Origin: a virus
Strand: one strand, 5' to 3'
DNA length: 42,303 bases
IMG/VR virus record: IMGVR_UViG_3300021197_001376
Coordinates: 1-42,303 of that record
The translations under genes were made by a program, and so were the position numbers. The notes under the pieces were generated by a model. The model did not search any database and was not told where the DNA came from. It saw nothing but the letters and a program-made list of their open reading frames with translations. Within the stretch, counting starts at the first letter, position 1. Every line of letters starts with the position of its first letter. This document shows, piece by piece, positions 3,757-42,303 of this stretch.

Positions 3757-5907
3757 ATGTCAACTTCAAAACCAAATTTAACTAGAGTATGGGCAGCTGG
3801 AGCAGCTCCTGGTAATGTGGTAGACCCAGATACAAGTGCTCCGGGTAAATTTGATGATGGTTGGTTAGCTGAAGTTCCAACTTTCCAACATTTTAATTTC
3901 CTTCAACAGTTATTTACCCAAGGTTTAGCCCATAATAATGAGCAAGGAATAAATGTATGGGATACAGCTACTCTCTATCCGATAGGTGGTTTAGCTAAGG
4001 GCTCTAATAGTATTGTATATGAAGCAGTAACTTCTAATATGAATATAGACCCTACTTCTGATGATGGTACAAACTGGAAAATATCATTTTCATCAAACAA
4101 TACAATAAATACTTCTAATGTAGCTAGTATGGACTTTTTACCATTGACAGTGGGGCAGATTGTATTCACTAAAGGATATTATGCAGACAACGATGGTGGA
4201 CAAGCTAAATATTTAATAGTTCCTGCTGAATCTGCTGATGAGTTTGGAGACCATACACTTCCTAATGGTAATGTTGCCAAATTATTAGTTGACGGATGGG
4301 TAAATGCTAAACAGTTCGGACTAAAAGGTGACACTGTTACTGATGATTCAGCGGCAGAAGTTGCTCTTATGGCATCTAGTAATTTATTTATATTTTTCCC
4401 AACTGGTGTTTATCAAACTAACCTTAGTAATGGTACAAGTAATAGAACCTTCTTATTTGCCGATGGAGCTATAATTGATGGAGTGATTCATATCACAGGT
4501 ACAGGTCCAGCGACACTACCGCCCCAAGGTTCAGTGACATGGGTAGATAACGTTCGTATGTTAGGTACTGCCACCGCTACTGTTAGATTTGGAACATTTT
4601 ATACTAGAAAATTAAATGTAGATAAAATTAGAATAGCTGAAGTTAATCCAGCCTATGTTAATCAAACCTTAACTGGTGGCTCAACTGGTGTTCACTTATA
4701 CTTTGGCACTAAAGAGATGGAGTGTGGTGAGATAATTTGTGACAGTGGCGCTCTAAATTACAATTTCAGCGTTGACCAAGGACCAGTAAAAGGTGTTGAT
4801 GAAGTACCTGAAAATATCCATATTGGTAGACTAGTGATAAACCAAACTGATGTTACTGGTTTAGTTACTGCTGAAACAATAAACCTTAGAATCGATGAAA
4901 TAGTACAGAAGAATCAAGGTGGTGCTAATGTTGCTTGGATTTCCAGTAATGATAAGAAATTAAAAGTTGGTAAGATAACACATGATGGAACTGGTGCTGA
5001 TAGTGGTCAAGTAGGGATATACTTACAAAACACAGATTCTGATTCAAGTGCAGAGTTTGGGACAGTAGATATTAGTAATGTCCCTGGAATTGCATTTAGG
5101 ACATTCAATACAGGCAAGGTTCATATAGGGACACTAATTGGTAATAATAATAGAGAACATGCTAGGATACAATCACATGTAACAATAGTTAATGTTGAGG
5201 GTGATGCTAGTTTAGAGGTCGGTATTAATTTCTTTGATAATTTCGCTGCTGGTTCATCTATCGGTAGATGTGAATTAACAGGAACAGATGGCACAGGTAT
5301 CAATGTTGGTTCAGATGACATAACAATTCCCTATGCTAAATGTGATGGATTCGCTACATTGTACGGGTTACTCATTCCAGCTGGTACAGAAAACTTCAAT
5401 AATGATTACTATGAAGGAGCTAATTGTTCACAAGCATTACGTTGTTTGAGCGCTGGTCCAATTAACATGGGTGTATTAAACTTACATGACAATACTAATG
5501 GTATAATTGGTTCAGGTATGTCTGATTTTGGTTTTGATTATGCTATCAATACCAACAATACAACAGATACGAACGTCGTGTTAGAAGTGCTTCCTGGATT
5601 TAGAGGTAAGAAAGTCAGACAGAGTGTTAGTGCTGACAGAGGAGATGCAAGTGTAACTTTAACAATTGGTGTTGACCAAATATCGCAGAGATTTGCAACA
5701 ACATTAACGGCCAATAGAACAGTTACGTTAAGCACAACCAATGCAGTAAATGGGGATAAGTTTAGAATATCAAGAACAGGAGCAGGAGCTTTTAATCTAT
5801 CTACTTCTGGGACGTTCAATAATAAAGGCTTAGCCCAAGATGAATGGGTTGAATATGAATTTCAAGGTGCTGGATGGTACTTAACTGCTAAGGGGTCATT
5901 AGTATAA
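3757..5907 (+). CDS. Tailspike / tail fibre with probable beta-helix
   Basis: This encodes a 716-residue receptor-binding protein. The first ~110 residues resemble a virion-attachment domain common in phage tail fibres (PNLTRVWAAGAAPGNVVDP near the start, then NFLQQLFTQGL and a carbohydrate-binding-like Trp segment). From about residue 180 there is a pectate-lyase-like start (WVNAKQFGLKGDTVTDDSAA) and then hundreds of residues of short beta strands rich in Asn, Gly and Ile, typical of a right-handed beta-helix. No enzymatic residues can be named. The last ~75 residues look like a separate beta domain. It probably determines host range and may degrade a surface polysaccharide. A ribosome site (AGAGGT) precedes the ATG. 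Confidence 0.82.
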   Translation: MSTSKPNLTRVWAAGAAPGNVVDPDTSAPGKFDDGWLAEVPTFQHFNFLQQLFTQGLAHNNEQGINVWDTATLYPIGGLAKGSNSIVYEAVTSNMNIDPTSDDGTNWKISFSSNNTINTSNVASMDFLPLTVGQIVFTKGYYADNDGGQAKYLIVPAESADEFGDHTLPNGNVAKLLVDGWVNAKQFGLKGDTVTDDSAAEVALMASSNLFIFFPTGVYQTNLSNGTSNRTFLFADGAIIDGVIHITGTGPATLPPQGSVTWVDNVRMLGTATATVRFGTFYTRKLNVDKIRIAEVNPAYVNQTLTGGSTGVHLYFGTKEMECGEIICDSGALNYNFSVDQGPVKGVDEVPENIHIGRLVINQTDVTGLVTAETINLRIDEIVQKNQGGANVAWISSNDKKLKVGKITHDGTGADSGQVGIYLQNTDSDSSAEFGTVDISNVPGIAFRTFNTGKVHIGTLIGNNNREHARIQSHVTIVNVEGDASLEVGINFFDNFAAGSSIGRCELTGTDGTGINVGSDDITIPYAKCDGFATLYGLLIPAGTENFNNDYYEGANCSQALRCLSAGPINMGVLNLHDNTNGIIGSGMSDFGFDYAINTNNTTDTNVVLEVLPGFRGKKVRQSVSADRGDASVTLTIGVDQISQRFATTLTANRTVTLSTTNAVNGDKFRISRTGAGAFNLSTSGTFNNKGLAQDEWVEYEFQGAGWYLTAKGSLV

Positions 5908-17362: not shown

Positions 17363-18637
17363 TTATTCTTCGTCTTCCATCCCATTAAAATCACCAGTAA
17401 TCGAAGGTTCAACAGCCTTACGTTTATCGGATAGTGGAGCTACAACTAACTTACCTTCAGGTTTGATAGTTATATCATCCATTATTGCTTTGGCATCTTT
17501 AACACCAACTTTCTTTTTAAGACGCTTTTCAATCTCAGTCATTGAGCGAGGTTTTTCAACATACATATCGTCATGTTCTAAATAGTCAACCAATGGAGAG
17601 AAATCTTCATCAAGAGCTTCTTCAGTAAACTTACGATTGGTTTTACTTCGTACCAATTTGAAATGGTCTTTATAATCAGTAGAACCAGCATCAACATCAA
17701 CCTTGATACTATTCTCAACTGCTACTAAGAACGATCGTATCATAGGAATGTGTTCAGCAACACTAATTTTTTGCTCAATTGTCATATTAACAGGGTCAGG
17801 GAATTGTTCACCTTCAAATTCAACCATTGCCTGTTCTTGTACCATTTGATATTGAGCACCGCATGGAGCACATGGACAGAACTTACAACCTTCTTCTGAT
17901 GGAACAATTGGAGCATCATCTTCAAGAGTTAATTTAGCAGCTGGAATAAGTTCATCTTCTTCCCAATTGTAAACAAAATCTTTATCAACTTCCCACCAAC
18001 GGATTGGACCAAGTTTATGGAATGCTCTTGGCTGAGATATGGTGATACGAATACCGCCTGGAATACCTTCACCATTAAATCGAGGATTCATAATAACACC
18101 AAGTGTATAATTCAATGCTTGAGTATTATCTTCAGCTTCTACTACAACACCAGCTCCATGTTTATAATCCAGAACTTCAATTGAATGTAAGTATTCTTTA
18201 CCTTCATCATTAATAGCCCAGAATAGTAATACAACATCTGATGTACCACCATCAAGACCTGGGATTCCAATGTAACTTAGTGAAGCTTTAACTTCAACTA
18301 GGATTTCAACTCTCATGTCTTCAAGAGCAGCTTCTTCAATTCGGTCTCTAATATAATCAAGAGATTCCTGAACAGCTTCAGCCATATTCTTGTTGACAAC
18401 AAACTCAAAACCGTCAGCTTTAAATTTCTTACCAAGGTAATCATTGGCATCTAAGTTTTTCACCAAACATAATTCATGGACTTCGTGAGCAACTGTACCT
18501 TCAGCTGCGAACTTAGATGTAGAATTCTCTATACCTAATTTCTCTTGAAGTTTAATTGACCCAGGGCACTTCATCCATCTCTTAGAAGCCGAAGGCGACA
18601 ATTTAGAATGTGATTTAGCTTCTATTTCTTCAGACAT
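17363..18637 (-). CDS. DUF2800 protein, RecB/Cas4-like nuclease
   Basis: This encodes a 424-residue protein of the DUF2800 family, related to PD-(D/E)xK nucleases. Expected elements are the N-terminal LSPSASKRWMKCPGS, EGTVAHEVHEL, the catalytic-type region DGGTSDVVLL followed about 20 residues later by VLDYKHGAGV, and a Cys cluster EGCKFCPCAPCGAQ that may bind a metal or an iron-sulphur cluster as in Cas4/AddB. It probably processes DNA ends in replication or recombination with the adjacent ssDNA-binding protein. The ATG at 18637 has GGGAGAA 7 bases upstream; a longer frame to 18670 lies inside the HNH gene. Confidence 0.87.
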   Translation of the reverse strand: MSEEIEAKSHSKLSPSASKRWMKCPGSIKLQEKLGIENSTSKFAAEGTVAHEVHELCLVKNLDANDYLGKKFKADGFEFVVNKNMAEAVQESLDYIRDRIEEAALEDMRVEILVEVKASLSYIGIPGLDGGTSDVVLLFWAINDEGKEYLHSIEVLDYKHGAGVVVEAEDNTQALNYTLGVIMNPRFNGEGIPGGIRITISQPRAFHKLGPIRWWEVDKDFVYNWEEDELIPAAKLTLEDDAPIVPSEEGCKFCPCAPCGAQYQMVQEQAMVEFEGEQFPDPVNMTIEQKISVAEHIPMIRSFLVAVENSIKVDVDAGSTDYKDHFKLVRSKTNRKFTEEALDEDFSPLVDYLEHDDMYVEKPRSMTEIEKRLKKKVGVKDAKAIMDDITIKPEGKLVVAPLSDKRKAVEPSITGDFNGMEDEE

Positions 18638-19133
18638 TATTCTTTCTCCCGTGATTTTTATGGAAACCATATTTAATCTCTGCTTCTTTTCTAACAGAGA
18701 TTGCTTTATCTAAATCATCAAATCTACCTAGGCTTTTTATTTTTCCATTGATGCCTATGTTAACTCGCCAATTTAATCTATCATTACACCAAGTAACTCC
18801 TCTATATCCTGAGGAACTTGTTTTACCTACTGATGAATTCTTTACATTCTCAGATTGAGGAACATCTCTTAAATTTGATATTCTGTTATTACTTCTATCG
18901 CCATCGATGTGGTCAATTTGGTATTTAGGCCACTTACCATAATGATAGAACCAAGCTAATTGATGAGCATAATATTCAGTTCCATCTAAACCAATTCTAG
19001 TATAACCTTTCCAACCACTGCCTGCATTAGAATTAACTTTTATTCTTGGACTAGTTGGATTAATCCACGTGAATATTCCTGTATCACTATCATATGATAG
19101 AACATGTTTTAATCTAAGTGAAGTTACTCTCAT
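18630..19133 (-). CDS. HNH endonuclease with AP2-type DNA-binding domain
   Basis: This encodes 167 residues. The HNH_3 motif is IDHIDGDRSNNRISNLR (residues 73-89), with Asp74-His75, preceded by YYAHQLAWFYHYGKWP, and followed by an AP2-like DNA-binding domain from SGYRGVTW (109) to about 150. This is the classic arrangement of free-standing phage homing endonucleases. It overlaps the DUF2800 start by 8 bases and follows the 60-residue gene by one base with a poor ribosome site, consistent with insertion into an existing operon. Confidence 0.92.
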   Translation of the reverse strand: MRVTSLRLKHVLSYDSDTGIFTWINPTSPRIKVNSNAGSGWKGYTRIGLDGTEYYAHQLAWFYHYGKWPKYQIDHIDGDRSNNRISNLRDVPQSENVKNSSVGKTSSSGYRGVTWCNDRLNWRVNIGINGKIKSLGRFDDLDKAISVRKEAEIKYGFHKNHGRKNNV

Positions 19134-19317: not shown

Positions 19318-19351
19318 AACTGTTTTCCTGTTTTACTGTTTAAGGGTTATT

Positions 19352-20295: not shown

Positions 20296-20318
20296 AACAT
20301 ATTCCTTATTTAACATTT

Positions 20319-20402
20319 TACTGTTTAACTGTTTTACTGTTTAACTATGTATATTTGCTAGACAGTGAGGACATTCTATTCTAATATATTTATGAAGTAC
20401 AC
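20319..20402 (-). promoter_or_regulatory. Main early leftward promoter and repeated leader
   Basis: Leftward GTGTAC (20402-20397), 18-base spacer, TAGAAT (20378-20373; a second overlapping copy at 20383-20378). The leader then contains two tandem copies of GTTAAACAGTAAAA (within 20319-20345). It drives the leftward arm. Confidence 0.65.
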
Positions 20403-20516: not shown

Positions 20517-21047
20517 ATGGACTCTAACGAGAACAAGAAAATCCCATTGTTCGGATATACTTATATAGTAAGTAACGACTTTGGGCTCATTAAGATAGGA
20601 AAATCAGCAGACCCTGAATCTAGAGTTAAGATGATTGAAGCTGCAAGTGGCGTTCCTACTAAACTTGAGTTTAAGATTAAAGGTGACTTTAGAGAATATA
20701 TTGCTCATGAGTTATTAAAAGAATTTAGAGTTACTGGCGAATGGTTCACTTGTTCTGTTGAACACGCAAAAAATGCTTTAGAATCTATTGAGATTCCTGA
20801 TTGCAATATGTTGATGTTCAATAAAGAACAATTGAAAACATACCATTCTGATGTATTGAATGAATTATTAGAAGATGTTGGTGGTAAGAAAAATTTATCT
20901 AAATTGATAAACAAATCTATTCCAACCATTAATAGTTGGATTTACCATGGGCGTATTAGTAAACAAGGTGCTAAGGACATTGAAAATAACTTGAGAATAA
21001 AAGAAAAGTTCTCAGCTGAATACCTACGTCCTGATTTAACTAAATAA
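20517..21047 (+). CDS. T5orf172 (GIY-YIG-like) domain fused to a YdaS/Cro-like HTH
   Basis: This encodes 176 residues. Residues ~12-92 look like a T5orf172/MUG113 domain, a GIY-YIG relative: GYTYIVSND, LIKIGKSADPESRVKM (Arg36), and AHELLKEFRVTGEWF (Glu65). Residues ~113-176 look like a YdaS/Cro-type helix-turn-helix: LLEDVGGKKNLSKLINKSIPTINSWIYHGRIS, ending EYLRPDL as YdaS proteins do. Its place at the divergent early promoter, first in the rightward arm, suggests a Cro-like regulator carrying a nuclease-like domain. Whether the nuclease domain is active is unknown. AGGATATACC precedes the start. Confidence 0.78.
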   Translation: MDSNENKKIPLFGYTYIVSNDFGLIKIGKSADPESRVKMIEAASGVPTKLEFKIKGDFREYIAHELLKEFRVTGEWFTCSVEHAKNALESIEIPDCNMLMFNKEQLKTYHSDVLNELLEDVGGKKNLSKLINKSIPTINSWIYHGRISKQGAKDIENNLRIKEKFSAEYLRPDLTK

Positions 21048-21060
21048 GGAATATAATGAT

Positions 21061-23682
21061 ATGTCAAATTATGACAAAAAAGAAATACGACCTTATTTAG
21101 ATACTAATTCAGACTTAATACCTATTCATGTTTGGAATAAGCAGATTAAAGGTAAGGTACGTGGCAAAACTCCTGTACACAATGACTGGACAACTCGTAA
21201 ATATAATATCAATAATGATACTATAAAGAGTTGGATAGATAAAGGTTATAACTTGGGTTATAGAATTCCAGCCAATGAACTCATTGTTGATATGGACCCA
21301 CGTAACTATGAGGGTGTTGACTGTGAGGAATTAATAGCGGAATTATTTGGTTATTTCGATTGGGAAGAGTTAATTGAAGAATTGCCTACAGTTAAGACTG
21401 GCGGTGGTGGTTATCATGTTTATTGCACTTTACCTGATGGTATAGATTATCGTCTTTTAAAAGAAACATTGGAGGAATATCCAGGTGTTGAATTCAAACG
21501 AAAAGGTAGACAAGTCCTCTGTGCAGGCTCAAAGCATCCGTCAGGAGGTTATTACAGATGGACAAATGTTGAAGAAAAATCCATTTTACCTGAATCAGTT
21601 ATTAAAACCATTAGTAGAGGAGCCAATAAGAAAGGAGACTACTCATCAGGAGAAGCTTCGTTAACTGGTACTCAATTACAGGAAATGATTCTTGATAAAC
21701 TCGATATTGAGAATTATGGTACTAATGATAAATGGTTCCCTCTATTATGCGCAGCTCATCATGCGACAGGCGGAACAGGTATAGAAGAGTTTGTAGAGTG
21801 GTCAATAGAGGCACTTGGATTTGAAGATGATGAAAACCTCATCAAACAGCGTTGGGAGTCTCTATATGATGGTAAGGAGACGTTATATACTGTTGGTACT
21901 CTTATCCATGAACTCGAGCAAAAAGGTGAAGATACATCTGGAGTTAAAGCAGTTCTCACATTCGCTAATCAACCTGAATTAGATATTGAAGATGATGATT
22001 CAGAAGAAGCTGAAATGGTTAATGGAGCTAACGAAATTGCTGCTGACATTGACATCGATGATATGTATCACACACCAGCTGGTGAAGCGGGAGTTGAAGG
22101 TGCCGCTCTTATAGCATGTAAAGATTTATCACCTGTATCATCTCAAGAAGATGTAATGAAAGCTCTTCGTCTTATTAAAGCGGCTGACAATTTCGAGGCT
22201 ATGAAAGCCAAAGACCTCATTGTTGAAAACAAGGTACTTAAGAAAAGTTCATTGAATGAAATACTAAAACAGTTAGAAGCTAAAATATCTGATGATTTAG
22301 CTCTTATGCTCAGTCAAAAGACATTAGAGAAAACCTTTAATAAAGGAAAACATTTAATGGGAGCCCCCAATGGCCAATTGTATACATTTAGTAAAACTCA
22401 TTGGAAACCATTGACTGATGAGTTTTTAAGTAAATTAATTCAGAATGTACTGTGGAAGATTAAAGAGAAAGTTAATATAGAGATGCAAGAGCTTTCACTA
22501 ATAACCCAAGCCCTTAAACTTAGCCGCATCCAAGTTGCTACTCTTACAGATAAGTTACACTCTACTGAATTGCCCAAATCTGTTGTTAATTGTCAAAATG
22601 GTGAATTATGGTTGATGAGAGATGGTACCCATGCTCTTCGTCCTCATTCATATAAGAGTTATTTATCGAGCTGCCTTAAAGTTAATTATGACCCATCAGC
22701 AGAATGCCCTCTATTCATGCAGACTATTAATGAGATTTTCGAAGACTTCATTGATGGTGAAGATATGGTGCGCCATATTGGTGAACTCATGGGGTATATG
22801 ATTCAACCTTATAAAAATATCGCGTCATGGTGGTTATTCCGTGGTCCTGGTGGTGATGGTAAATCAACCCTCGTTAAAGTACTTGAAGCTATATTGCACG
22901 ACGCACAAGTCTCATCTACTGTTAAATTGCTTAGCGCTGCCTCATCAAATGGTGATAACCATGGTATGACAAGTCTTGTTGGCGCACTTTCAGTCATCAT
23001 TGAGGAATTACCCGCTAATTACCTACTTAAGGATGAAGGCGTTAAGATGTTATCGGAAAATACCAAAATGGAATGTAATCCAAAAGGTAAGGATAAGTTC
23101 AACTTCATGTATGGCGGCAATTTAATCATGTGTAGTAATGGTTTTCCTGCCACACGAGATTTATCACATGGTATGATACGAAGAGCTAATGTTATCCCAT
23201 TCAATAAACAATTTACCAAAGAAGATGTGCAAGGTAATAATAAAGCAGATATTGATAGACTCGATAATATTATTCGTAATCCCAAAGAAATGGCTGGAAT
23301 ACTTAACTTCATGCTTGAAGGTTTACAAAGGTTACGCAATAGAGGAAGATTTCTCATTCCAGAATCTTGTGCTGAAGCGAAAGAAGAATGGATGGGGCAA
23401 GCCAATAATGTGGCCAGATTCTTAAAAGATAATGTTGAAAAGACTCCTGGGATTGTAGATTGTTTGGGTGATTTTAATTCTCTTTATAACATTATTTATT
23501 TCACGTGGTGTGAACAGAATGGAATAGATGAAAAAATGAGAAAGAAAAAACAACATTTTAAATCTGATTTATCTGACTTAGGGTTCACTGTAAAACCTGG
23601 GGGAGGGAATGTGATGAAGGTATATGGGGGGAATTTGTTGTCATCAGCAGAAGATTTGATTGATGGAATAGAGGATTTTTAG
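21061..23682 (+). CDS. Primase-helicase (prim-pol + SF3 helicase)
   Basis: This encodes an 873-residue replication initiator/primase. The N-terminus is a prim-pol (archaeo-eukaryotic primase) domain: IVDMDPRNY near residue 75 gives two metal-binding Asp, and GGGGYHVYC near 113-121 is the conserved Gly-His segment. A PriCT-like linker follows (around 205-270: WFPLLCAAHHATGG), then an acidic linker and a D5-N-like region. The C-terminal third is an SF3 helicase with Walker A GPGGDGKSTLVK at about 594-605 and downstream IIEELPAN and NLIMCSNGFP motifs. It is the only primase and presumed fork helicase here. Confidence 0.92.
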   Translation: MSNYDKKEIRPYLDTNSDLIPIHVWNKQIKGKVRGKTPVHNDWTTRKYNINNDTIKSWIDKGYNLGYRIPANELIVDMDPRNYEGVDCEELIAELFGYFDWEELIEELPTVKTGGGGYHVYCTLPDGIDYRLLKETLEEYPGVEFKRKGRQVLCAGSKHPSGGYYRWTNVEEKSILPESVIKTISRGANKKGDYSSGEASLTGTQLQEMILDKLDIENYGTNDKWFPLLCAAHHATGGTGIEEFVEWSIEALGFEDDENLIKQRWESLYDGKETLYTVGTLIHELEQKGEDTSGVKAVLTFANQPELDIEDDDSEEAEMVNGANEIAADIDIDDMYHTPAGEAGVEGAALIACKDLSPVSSQEDVMKALRLIKAADNFEAMKAKDLIVENKVLKKSSLNEILKQLEAKISDDLALMLSQKTLEKTFNKGKHLMGAPNGQLYTFSKTHWKPLTDEFLSKLIQNVLWKIKEKVNIEMQELSLITQALKLSRIQVATLTDKLHSTELPKSVVNCQNGELWLMRDGTHALRPHSYKSYLSSCLKVNYDPSAECPLFMQTINEIFEDFIDGEDMVRHIGELMGYMIQPYKNIASWWLFRGPGGDGKSTLVKVLEAILHDAQVSSTVKLLSAASSNGDNHGMTSLVGALSVIIEELPANYLLKDEGVKMLSENTKMECNPKGKDKFNFMYGGNLIMCSNGFPATRDLSHGMIRRANVIPFNKQFTKEDVQGNNKADIDRLDNIIRNPKEMAGILNFMLEGLQRLRNRGRFLIPESCAEAKEEWMGQANNVARFLKDNVEKTPGIVDCLGDFNSLYNIIYFTWCEQNGIDEKMRKKKQHFKSDLSDLGFTVKPGGGNVMKVYGGNLLSSAEDLIDGIEDF

Positions 23683-23701: not shown

Positions 23702-23718
23702 AGGGTTAGAAAAGTTAT
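23702..23718 (+). repeat. 17-bp direct repeat, copy 1
   Basis: AGGGTTAGAAAAGTTAT here recurs exactly at 23773-23789 and, inverted with one mismatch over 16 bases, at 23869-23884. It follows the primase stop by 19 bases. It may be an iteron or binding site. Confidence 0.8.
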
Positions 23719-23768
23719 AAAGTTAAAAAGGTTATTTTTTATTTTTAATATTTTTGATAATTAGAAAT

Positions 23769-23884
23769 AAACAGGGTTAGAAAAGTTATTAAATTTATAT
23801 TAGTTATACATATAAGAAAAATAATTTGAAAAAAAAAAATATATATATATAGACTAACACATAAAAAGTAACTATTCTAACCCT
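23769..23884. promoter_or_regulatory. Inverted-repeat-bounded AT-rich element A
   Basis: The element starts with AGGGTTAGAAAAGTTAT (23773-23789), ends with its near-perfect inverse (23869-23884, 15 of 16 bases), and has an 80-base A/T core with an A-run and an (AT)n stretch (23830-23850). It is homologous over ~105 bp to element B at 29373-29488: acagggtta at the left, then agacta and aaaagtaac 13 bases apart at the right. It precedes the exonuclease gene and directly follows the primase-helicase, so it may be a phage-specific promoter or the replication origin. Confidence 0.65.
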
Positions 23885-27032: not shown

Positions 27033-27225
27033 TAAGATTTATTTGACTTGTGATATTAAACTTAGTTGGTGGTTAATCTATCTATACATTCCTATGTTAA
27101 TTTTGTCCGCTAAAATAAGTTGCTACTTCAATAATGAAGCAGAACCTAATTGGAATAGAGTTGAAAAAGTAATAAAGAAAGGAATCAAATTAAAGAACAT
27201 GAGGACTACTTATGGTAAATCCTGA
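27019..27225 (+). CDS. Small membrane protein before the terminase
   Basis: This encodes 68 residues with one hydrophobic segment at about 15-32 (WWLIYLYIPMLILSA) and a basic C-terminus (KVIKKGIKLKNMR). ATG 27019 has AAGGAG 6-7 bases upstream and overlaps the previous gene's end. It overlaps the terminase start. Function unknown; it could be an extra lysis or superinfection protein. Confidence 0.6.
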   Translation: MMNSNKIYLTCDIKLSWWLIYLYIPMLILSAKISCYFNNEAEPNWNRVEKVIKKGIKLKNMRTTYGKS

Positions 27226-28066
27226 TGAAGATAGATTGCAATGGACATTTAATGAAAAACGAATGCTCAAATATATGCTTGAAAATGATGGTATGCAGTT
27301 TATGCGTTACTTTTTTAAGCAAAGAGAAGGTAATAGGATGCTTAGAAATTGGCATCATTATGTCATAGAGTACGTTCTTCAAGCAGTTTATGATTGTAAG
27401 ATTGAACGTCTTATCGTTAATATAGCTCCAGGTTATTCAAAAACAGAACAAGTAGTGCTTAATTTTATTCAACGTGGGTTAGCACTAAATCCTCGTTCTA
27501 AGTATATTCATGCTTCATATTCAGGTGATTTAGCACATAACAACTCATCTAAAATAAAAGATGGAGTTGAATCTGAAGAATTTCAAGAACTTTGGCCTAT
27601 GAAAATTAGGGTAGATTCTAAAGGTAAGAAACGTTGGTTTACTGAAAATGGTGGTGGTATGATGGCTGCACCTGCTGGTGGTCAGATTACTGGATTCCGT
27701 GCAGGAAGAATGGAGCCTGGATTTACAGGAGCTTTCGTATTAGATGACCCAGTTAAACCTGATGACGCTTATTCAATAGTTAAACGTTCAGGCATTAACA
27801 ATCGTTTCAACAACACTATGCGTTCACGTTTAGCTATTGAAACAGTACCTATGATTGTCATAATGCAACGTATTCATGAAGATGATTTATCCGGATATTT
27901 ACTCCGCGGTGGTTCGGGTGATAAATGGCATCATTTAGATATACCTACTAGATTAGATGATGAGTTAGTTAATGGAACATATCCATCTGATTACACTCAT
28001 GGTATTAAAATCGATTTGAACGAAATTCTTCGGTGTATGCATTCTGGGGAAGAATATGAATTTTAG
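27212..28066 (+). CDS. Large terminase, ATPase part
   Basis: This encodes 284 residues corresponding to the packaging ATPase. The Walker A-like loop is NIAPGYSKTEQVV (about residues 70-82) and Walker B is GAFVLDDPVK, followed by a coupling-type segment with VPMIVIMQRIHEDDLSGYLL. The frame ends at TAG 28064-28066, just where the nuclease half continues in the +1 frame from 28056. GAGGACT precedes the start. It is either the N-terminal half of a frameshifted terminase or a separate ATPase subunit. Confidence 0.85.
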   Translation: MVNPDEDRLQWTFNEKRMLKYMLENDGMQFMRYFFKQREGNRMLRNWHHYVIEYVLQAVYDCKIERLIVNIAPGYSKTEQVVLNFIQRGLALNPRSKYIHASYSGDLAHNNSSKIKDGVESEEFQELWPMKIRVDSKGKKRWFTENGGGMMAAPAGGQITGFRAGRMEPGFTGAFVLDDPVKPDDAYSIVKRSGINNRFNNTMRSRLAIETVPMIVIMQRIHEDDLSGYLLRGGSGDKWHHLDIPTRLDDELVNGTYPSDYTHGIKIDLNEILRCMHSGEEYEF

Positions 28067-28799
28067 TGTTGAAGCTATAAGTGATATGCCTACCCTGGTG
28101 CTCCCTGGAAGTCCACTGTGGCCTTTTAAACACACACTTGAACAATTACGCACCCTAGAATTAGGTGACCCTTATACATTCTCTAGTCAAATGCAACAAA
28201 GACCAAATCCACTTGGTGGTGGAATGTTTAAAGACAAATATTGGAAGTATTATGATGTACTTCCTCCTGATGTTGACTTAATGAGAATATATGGAGATAC
28301 TGCACAGAAGACTAAAGAACACAATGATTTTTCAGTATTTCAATGTTGGGCAAGAAGTAGGTCTAAGGGTATATTTTTAGTAGACCAAGTTAGAGGTAAA
28401 TTTGAAGCTCCTGAATTAGAATCAGTGATGGTTGAATTTTGGAATAAACATAAGCCTACACAATTCAAACCATTTGGTGCTCAATTAGTTAAGATTGAAG
28501 ATAAGAGTTCAGGTTCAAGTTTAATTCAGTCTATTCAACGAGATTATATGATTCCTGTTGAAGCTATACAACGAAATACAGATAAAGTGCTTCGTAGCAT
28601 GGGTGCAATAAAATACTTTGCTAGCGGGTTTGTTCATATTCCTAGAGAAAGAGATTTCGTTAGTGATTATAAAGATGAGTTTAGGAAATTTACTCCTTTA
28701 ATGACACATAAACATGATGACCAAATTGACCCTACATTGGATGCAGTAGAAGATTTACTAGTATTTGAAGATATGATATATAATGAAAATGCATTATAA
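28056..28799 (+). CDS. Large terminase, nuclease part
   Basis: This encodes 247 residues holding the RNase H-like nuclease that cuts concatemers. It opens (after ~20 residues) with PGSPLWPFKHTLEQL and SSQMQQRPNPLGGGMFK, the usual linker of large terminases, and has acidic catalytic positions in RIYGDTAQKTKEHNDF, VKIEDKSSG and HKHDDQIDP. It overlaps the ATPase frame by 11 bases. A GGGGAAGA sequence lies just upstream of ATG 28056, so independent initiation is possible, as is a +1 slip on TTT TAG (28061-28066). Confidence 0.87.
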   Translation: MNFSVEAISDMPTLVLPGSPLWPFKHTLEQLRTLELGDPYTFSSQMQQRPNPLGGGMFKDKYWKYYDVLPPDVDLMRIYGDTAQKTKEHNDFSVFQCWARSRSKGIFLVDQVRGKFEAPELESVMVEFWNKHKPTQFKPFGAQLVKIEDKSSGSSLIQSIQRDYMIPVEAIQRNTDKVLRSMGAIKYFASGFVHIPRERDFVSDYKDEFRKFTPLMTHKHDDQIDPTLDAVEDLLVFEDMIYNENAL

Positions 28800-28829: not shown

Positions 28830-29369
28830 ATGAGTAGTTTAAGACAAAGTTACAATAGAATAGCAGACCCAAGAAAATTCCCTATTCAAAGGTCGTTTAC
28901 CGATGATGGTTTGATAACTGGGGACACAAGTATGGTTGTTGATGGTTCTGCTATGCCCGTTGAATTCTTCTTTCAAGCAGAACCTAACAGACAAATCTCA
29001 ATAAATAAATTAGGTTTCTTAGTAAGTGATGCAGGTAATACCGATTTTACTAACTACGGTAGCTTAGCTGGTCCATTAGCAAATGGCATTACACTCTTTA
29101 CAGTTATTGATGGTCAGGAAATTCCACTAACCCCAGTGATAAAAGCTACAGCGGATTATTTTAGTATTGGAGCGCTAGCTCAATTTGTAACATTGTCAGG
29201 TTCTTCACGTTTAGCTAATTATACCTTTAGCTTATTTGATTATTCTGAAGGTATTATATTAGACGGAGATAATGGAGATATTCTAGGAATAAGAATAAAT
29301 GATGATTTAACAGGACTCGATTTACATGAAGCTTCTTTAGACGGGTTCTTTCAATTTAAAGCAGTTTAA
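28830..29369 (+). CDS. Hypothetical head-region (virion) protein
   Basis: This encodes 179 residues, beta-rich and acidic, with no cysteine and no signal peptide. Its position between terminase and portal and its composition suggest a virion structural or head-decorating protein. The opening LRQSYNRIADPRKFPIQRS may be a binding segment. No family recognised. AGAGGAT precedes the ATG; element B follows. Confidence 0.55.
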   Translation: MSSLRQSYNRIADPRKFPIQRSFTDDGLITGDTSMVVDGSAMPVEFFFQAEPNRQISINKLGFLVSDAGNTDFTNYGSLAGPLANGITLFTVIDGQEIPLTPVIKATADYFSIGALAQFVTLSGSSRLANYTFSLFDYSEGIILDGDNGDILGIRINDDLTGLDLHEASLDGFFQFKAV

Positions 29370-29372
29370 CAG

Positions 29373-29488
29373 CAACAGGGTTACTAAGGTTACTAAATCA
29401 TTGTATATTATTAGTATAAGATAAAAAATTTAAGAATATATTTTTCTATTATATAAAGACTAGGCTGCGAAAAGTAACCTTAATAACT
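29373..29488. promoter_or_regulatory. Inverted-repeat-bounded AT-rich element B
   Basis: The left arm is a tandem GGTTACTAA repeat (29379-29396), and the right arm 29473-29488 is the inverse of 29379-29394 at 14 of 16 bases. The 78-base core is A/T rich and contains a TATAAA box just before AGACTA (29457-29462). It matches element A (23769-23884) in order and spacing. It sits 15 bases before the portal start, so a phage-regulated promoter for head and tail genes is the simplest reading. Confidence 0.65.
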
Positions 29489-29503
29489 TTTTAGGATTAA
29501 ACA

Positions 29504-42126: not shown

Positions 42127-42303
42127 ACAGTTTAGACGTGTCTATGATTTAACTATTATTCCTTCTGATGGGGAAGCCAGAATAATAAAAGATTTAAGAA
42201 TAAACTTTGAAATTACAAAAAGTGTTTTGAGTTTTCCAAATTTATGTAAATTAGTTATATATAATCCAAATGAAGAAACTAAATCAACATTACAAAAAAA
42301 ATT
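42119..42303 (+). CDS. Baseplate hub protein, 5' part (continues at 230-911)
   Basis: ATG 42119 opens MARQFRRVYDLTIIPSDGEA and runs off the end of the window in the same frame as the gene at 45-911. This is the reliable copy of the N-terminus; joining gives 288 residues. The start overlaps the plug gene stop. The RRVYDLTI(I)-type opening is typical of hub proteins in this myovirus group. Confidence 0.75.
   Translation, partial: MARQFRRVYDLTIIPSDGEARIIKDLRINFEITKSVLSFPNLCKLVIYNPNEETKSTLQKK
42165..42303. repeat. Terminal overlap, right copy
   Basis: This segment equals 91-229 with one mismatch (42177). The final 126 bases (42178-42303) are exactly identical to 104-229. It marks the closure point of a circular map of about 42,074 bp. 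Confidence 0.9.

Follow-up and report, generated by a model that had tools for sequence, protein, structure and literature searches.

Mirror-symmetric paired elements as candidate initiator sites, one of them directly 3' of a Prim-Pol/D5 primase gene, in a group of tailed phages

The DNA analysed (hereafter the window) is the complete 42,303-base IMG/VR record IMGVR_UViG_3300021197_001376, whose gene content is that of a tailed phage. Between about 7 and 20 kb the genes are read leftward, and from 20.5 kb onward they are read rightward; the right part of the window carries genes for a Prim-Pol/D5 primase, an exonuclease, a terminase, a portal protein, a protease and a major head protein. Two related elements, A and B, are located in this right part. 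Element A lies between the primase stop codon (23682) and the exonuclease ATG (23917), and element B between an open reading frame at 28830-29369 and the portal ATG (29504). The features considered are the following:

20517..21047, + strand: gene upstream of the primase, with a T5orf172/MUG113-like N-terminal part and a C-terminal YdaS-like stretch
21061..23682, + strand: primase-helicase, 873 aa, with Prim-Pol, PriCT_2, D5_N and DUF5906; C-terminal region modelled as winged-helix-like
23702..23724, + strand: extra direct copy of the left arm of A, AGGGTTAGAAAAGTTATAAAGTT, outside the dyad; similar extras are found in relatives
23773-23884, + strand: element A, directly 3' of the primase gene, beginning 90 nt past the stop codon
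23773..23790, + strand: left arm of A, with two GTTA repeats
23791..23866, + strand: core of A, A/T-rich, 76 nt, in conserved orientation relative to the genes
23867..23884, + strand: right arm of A, with inverted repeats of the left arm
29377-29490, + strand: element B, ahead of the portal gene
29377..29394, + strand: left arm of B, AGGGTTACTAAGGTTACT
29395..29472, + strand: core of B, A/T-rich, 78 nt
29473..29490, + strand: right arm of B, ending 13 nt from the portal start codon

The large terminase is encoded by two overlapping open reading frames (27212-28066 and 28056-28799) that match adjacent parts of phrog_38; this two-part arrangement recurs in most relatives, where the matches often overlap by 8 nt. 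The two ends of the record (106-200 and 42182-42276) are near-identical over about 95 bases, possibly as a terminal assembly overlap or a duplicated gene start. Tandem copies of ACTGTTTTACTGTTTA, possibly operators, are present at 20312-20352, ahead of gene 20517 in the intergenic region where transcription diverges, with a related copy at 19319-19343. The gene at 18630-19133 encodes an HNH_3 endonuclease that also has a weak AP2-like stretch. The GC-skew minimum is near 20 kb and not at A, and the skew is of no help in placing an origin because its turn coincides with the point of gene divergence.

All four domains of the primase, Prim-Pol (PF09250, E 1.1e-13), PriCT_2, D5_N and DUF5906, were above the cut-offs; Pox_D5 was just above its cut-off in the primase of one relative (G025) and not in that of the window. 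The only solved structures matched were 7OLA/7OM0, described as 'DNA primase' (E 0.001; 4.6e-5 with a C-terminal profile), which we take to be the SaPI5 primase-helicase. A model of residues 690-873 had medium confidence (mean pLDDT 70.5) and a winged-helix-like order of elements, with the winged-helix-like C-terminal 90 residues reaching a local pLDDT of about 80-90, and a Foldseek search with the C-terminal model gave weak matches only (best E 0.13). A winged-helix-like C-terminal region is only tentatively predicted for this protein. Around the end of the primase gene, no comparable element was found in KP13-27, K459, KLEA5, 9NA and 1.049.O, which have related primase C-termini, or in Tedan and QDWS359, with related N-termini. 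Concerning the upstream gene 20517, its C-terminal part (about aa 98-174) is found ahead of the primase in most relatives, the YdaS-like stretch probably contains a helix-turn-helix, and the product may be a regulator or an accessory factor.

Elements A and B were found where the original prediction had located them, and they are alike beyond chance. Their local alignment scored 87.5, compared with a maximum of 65 among 2000 dinucleotide shuffles of B, and no stretch of the window outside B aligned to A above a score of 59. The two motifs described as common to both elements at a fixed spacing were recovered as AGACTA-N7-AAAAGTAAC, exact in A and B, with at least two mismatches in any other match. 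Inverted repeats bound each element, as had been claimed, with Watson-Crick pairing of the arms at 16 of 18 positions in A and 15 of 18 in B and scores above those of all 500 shuffles; the extra direct repeat reported near A is also present (23702-23724). Since coding DNA of the window also contains inverted repeats of comparable score, an inverted repeat alone proves little, and the case for the elements rests instead on the likeness of A and B and on the relatives. Only two repeats are contained in each arm of the window, fewer and weaker than in classical iteron arrays. A DNA search of a phage database with the A region gave nothing useful.

Searches with the portal and exonuclease sequences yielded about 180 loci, after which stretches of 26 records were read and scanned; a primase query against viral_contigs found no relative. 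An inverted repeat with an A/T core was located no further than about 450 nt 3' of the primase in 14 of the 19 relatives having this gene, when about 0.02 such repeats were expected per primase-3' stretch (binomial p about 4e-20). The position of the element is conserved in related phages. In the other five relatives (G002, G003, G016, G019 and G020) the scan scored no inverted repeat at this place; inspection by eye revealed a weak repeat kept in G019, repeat-like sequence in G002, G003 and G020, and none in G016. On the portal side, an inverted repeat within 300 nt 5' of the gene was detected in 5 of 25 genomes (p about 1e-5). Element B, which is distant from the primase, is absent in most relatives, an absence that needs careful reading because IMG/VR records may be fragments.

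The sequence of the arms varies widely among relatives (AGGGTTAGGAGGGTTAGT in G011, GTTAGTTTAGGTGGGTTT in G007, GTTAAAAGTTAATAAAA in G004, a 44-nt arm in L112). Almost all arms contain units of the GGTTA/GTTA type, mostly spaced by about 9 bp and mirrored across the A/T core, and the clearest view of this unit is provided by G025, where each flank of the core has three tandem copies of TTTGATAAC. The cores of the relatives have an A/T content of 63-86%, with repeats in both flanking arms, and their orientation relative to the genes is conserved. Extra direct copies outside the dyad are present in several genomes (L106, L111, L114), and repeats in other orientations were found in G025, G020 and G026.

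That the arms differ between A and B while each element keeps its own symmetry, as originally noticed in the window, is also true across the relatives. In 27 elements, the mean identity of mirrored arms was 0.89, a value biased upward by the choice of these elements for mirror symmetry, compared with 0.49 at a one-repeat shift, likewise biased upward as the best of six shifts, and a background of 0.29. The A and B cores of G013 are near-identical (score 114) and the arms read GGGTTAGAAAAGGTGT in A versus GGGTTAGTTTAGGGGT in B, each mirrored by its own opposite arm, so that four paired differences and zero unpaired ones were counted over 16 bp. A and B were more alike within genomes than between genomes (arms, p 0.002; cores, p 0.004; 7 genomes each), which is expected if one phage-encoded factor serves both sites.

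Matching arms could also be a by-product of replication, generated without selection for symmetry by template switching at a quasi-palindrome or by local gene conversion, with the repeats alone being functional. This explanation is possible but doubtful. Direct extra copies (at 23702 in the window; three in L114) share the non-motif letters of the arms, which are unneeded for pairing, and L112 (44 nt) and G014 (24 nt in the outer part) have very long arms that resemble extended palindromes. However, mirrored identity is far above one-repeat-offset identity and the palindromes persist at one place over wide divergence; furthermore, a pRN1 stem mutant that had lost replication regained it when symmetry was restored, so that symmetry can matter (PMC4234260). 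Copying between arms would account for how the symmetry arose and does not conflict with an origin. With regard to B, we infer that it is most likely a second origin or an initiator-binding site, its main rival being a non-functional copy, that is, a relic or mobile duplicate of A. To the latter we give a minority share of credence: the patchy portal-side distribution (5/25 scored) and the greater likeness of cores within genomes agree with it, but the arms of B are still symmetric even where they are unlike those of A (window, G013, G021).

Three roles had been offered for the elements, of which the replication origin is retained and the structured RNA and the promoter are not. As structured RNAs, the elements would act in the exonuclease and portal mRNAs, either as leaders or as hairpins for processing. 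Their position just upstream of these genes on the coding strand, the conserved core orientation, the variation of the arms with maintained complementarity and the folding of A, far better than its shuffles (z -5.95), are consistent with such a role. Nevertheless, B folded little better than shuffles (z -1.27), an Rfam scan gave no match at the gathering threshold, and G:T mismatches in the arms were not in excess over C:A mismatches when arm borders were set without favouring G:T (19:16 in 22 elements; 23:18 in 27 elements, p 0.53). An apparent G:T excess (35 to 12) was an artefact of an arm scoring that favoured G:T, and it was gone with symmetric scoring. Because the mismatches show no strand preference, they are better explained at the level of duplex DNA, by a dyad, a cruciform or copying from arm to arm. 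The different repeat orientations of G025, G020 and G026, together with extra direct copies that are ill-suited to a single hairpin, also count against the RNA role, which is very improbable.

It is also unlikely that the elements are promoters or operators at which a phage regulator, for instance the product of gene 20517, binds the dyad. In favour of this role, the elements are ahead of the exonuclease and portal genes, the repeats are common to A and B of one genome, and the 20517 product has the YdaS-like C-terminal stretch and is encoded beside the primase in most relatives. Against this, a scan limited to sigma-70-type promoters matched A once and B not at all, which is not above shuffles, many relatives lack an element before the portal gene, and a spacing of about 75 bp between operators, with mirror-matched non-motif letters, would be unusual. 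In the absence of a sigma-70-like excess, the promoter was rejected as the main reading. Integron attC sites were also considered and dropped, the GTTA/TAAC order being reversed.

Comparison with known systems favours an origin for A. In pRN1, a stem-loop of about 100 nt (21-nt stem, 58-nt loop) located 3' of a Prim-Pol/SF3/winged-helix gene is needed for replication and is poorly conserved in sequence and conserved in structure, and phage BIP-1 has a similar stem-loop and a replication protein with Prim-Pol and PriCT_2 (PMC4234260). Like these systems, the present group has a replication gene of the Prim-Pol/SF3 type, in which an archaeo-eukaryotic Prim-Pol domain is joined to an SF3/D5-type helicase (and to PriCT_2, as in BIP-1), and 3' of it an element of about 100 nt with a stem of 16-21 bp and a large loop, in which the arm sequence is poorly conserved and the stem is kept; a small, possibly regulatory gene upstream is shared with pRN1. 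Unlike in those systems, the element recurs 5.6 kb away, its arms contain repeated GTTA-type units, and divergent relatives are numerous. The placement of a large stem-loop just 3' of the initiator gene is seen for A and not for B.

PICI origins consist of two iteron sets around an AT-rich region 3' of pri-rep, an arrangement called unique among bacterial replicons (PMC6092414). SaPI origins have also been treated in a study in which Cch2 bound, through its C-terminal domain, a putative origin located 3' of the Cch2 gene, binding being abolished by deletion of the direct repeats and not by deletion of the inverted repeats (PMC7581432). Here, as in PICI/SaPI origins, a primase/initiator gene is immediately followed by two repeat sets with an AT-rich region between them. 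The differences are the few repeats per arm, the two loci and the location, which is not a satellite (chromosomal island) but tailed-phage genomes with terminase, portal and capsid genes, the window itself having terminase, portal, protease and major head protein genes. Element A agrees with both kinds of origin in position and in architecture, and B departs from them in position.

Phage P4 has a primase-helicase initiator, the alpha protein, and two separate cis sites, ori1 and crr, several kb apart. The present phages are similar to P4 in their proposed primase-helicase initiator and in two candidate cis sites kilobases apart, a likeness at the level of description; P4 alpha and its cognate site are mentioned in PMC6092414. 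Repeat-bearing palindromes directly 3' of the primase gene were also found in Achromobacter phage AchV4 (L246; a 36-nt-arm inverted repeat at 5163-5282, 3' of a Prim-Pol/D5 gene and absent from the annotation of the record) and in Methanoculleus virus L4768 (L250; a 26-nt-arm palindrome with further repeats at 2212-2293, 3' of a D5_N primase gene). The likeness of the AchV4 core to this group is striking by eye and not significant, 67 of 500 shuffles scoring as high.

The candidate origin beside the primase is thus supported by the conserved position, the architecture and the Prim-Pol/D5 (SF3-type) primase, a protein class for which origins of this sort have been described, and A is probably a double-stranded DNA origin worked by the protein encoded upstream, with B as a second copy of the site. 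The Prim-Pol/D5-helicase would bind the GTTA-type repeats of both arms through its C-terminal region, assemble on both sides in mirror image, open the A/T-rich core and prime synthesis, which might proceed bidirectionally. Cruciform extrusion, or the need to load two helicase assemblies in mirror image, may be what keeps the arms symmetric. Only some members of the group possess B, which could serve as an alternative origin or as an auxiliary site for initiator binding. A broader proposal, that each genome has two functional initiator sites in which repeat units and duplex symmetry are both selected, and that PICI iteron origins and pRN1-like stem-loop origins are one kind, is put forward tentatively, with the balance still somewhat against it. 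This kind of origin is already known; the in-genome pair and the symmetry-preserving divergence are new.

The work on pRN1 left open whether Prim-Pol/SF3 initiators read the letters of the repeats or the shape of the stem-loop. The phages of this group constitute natural variants for this question, such as G013, with the same core and respelled symmetric arms, and G020 and G025, with other repeat orientations. A satellite-style origin, in 2018 described as PICI-only, would now be placed in full-size tailed phages, and the stretch 3' of the primase is a place to seek origins in many unannotated environmental phages.
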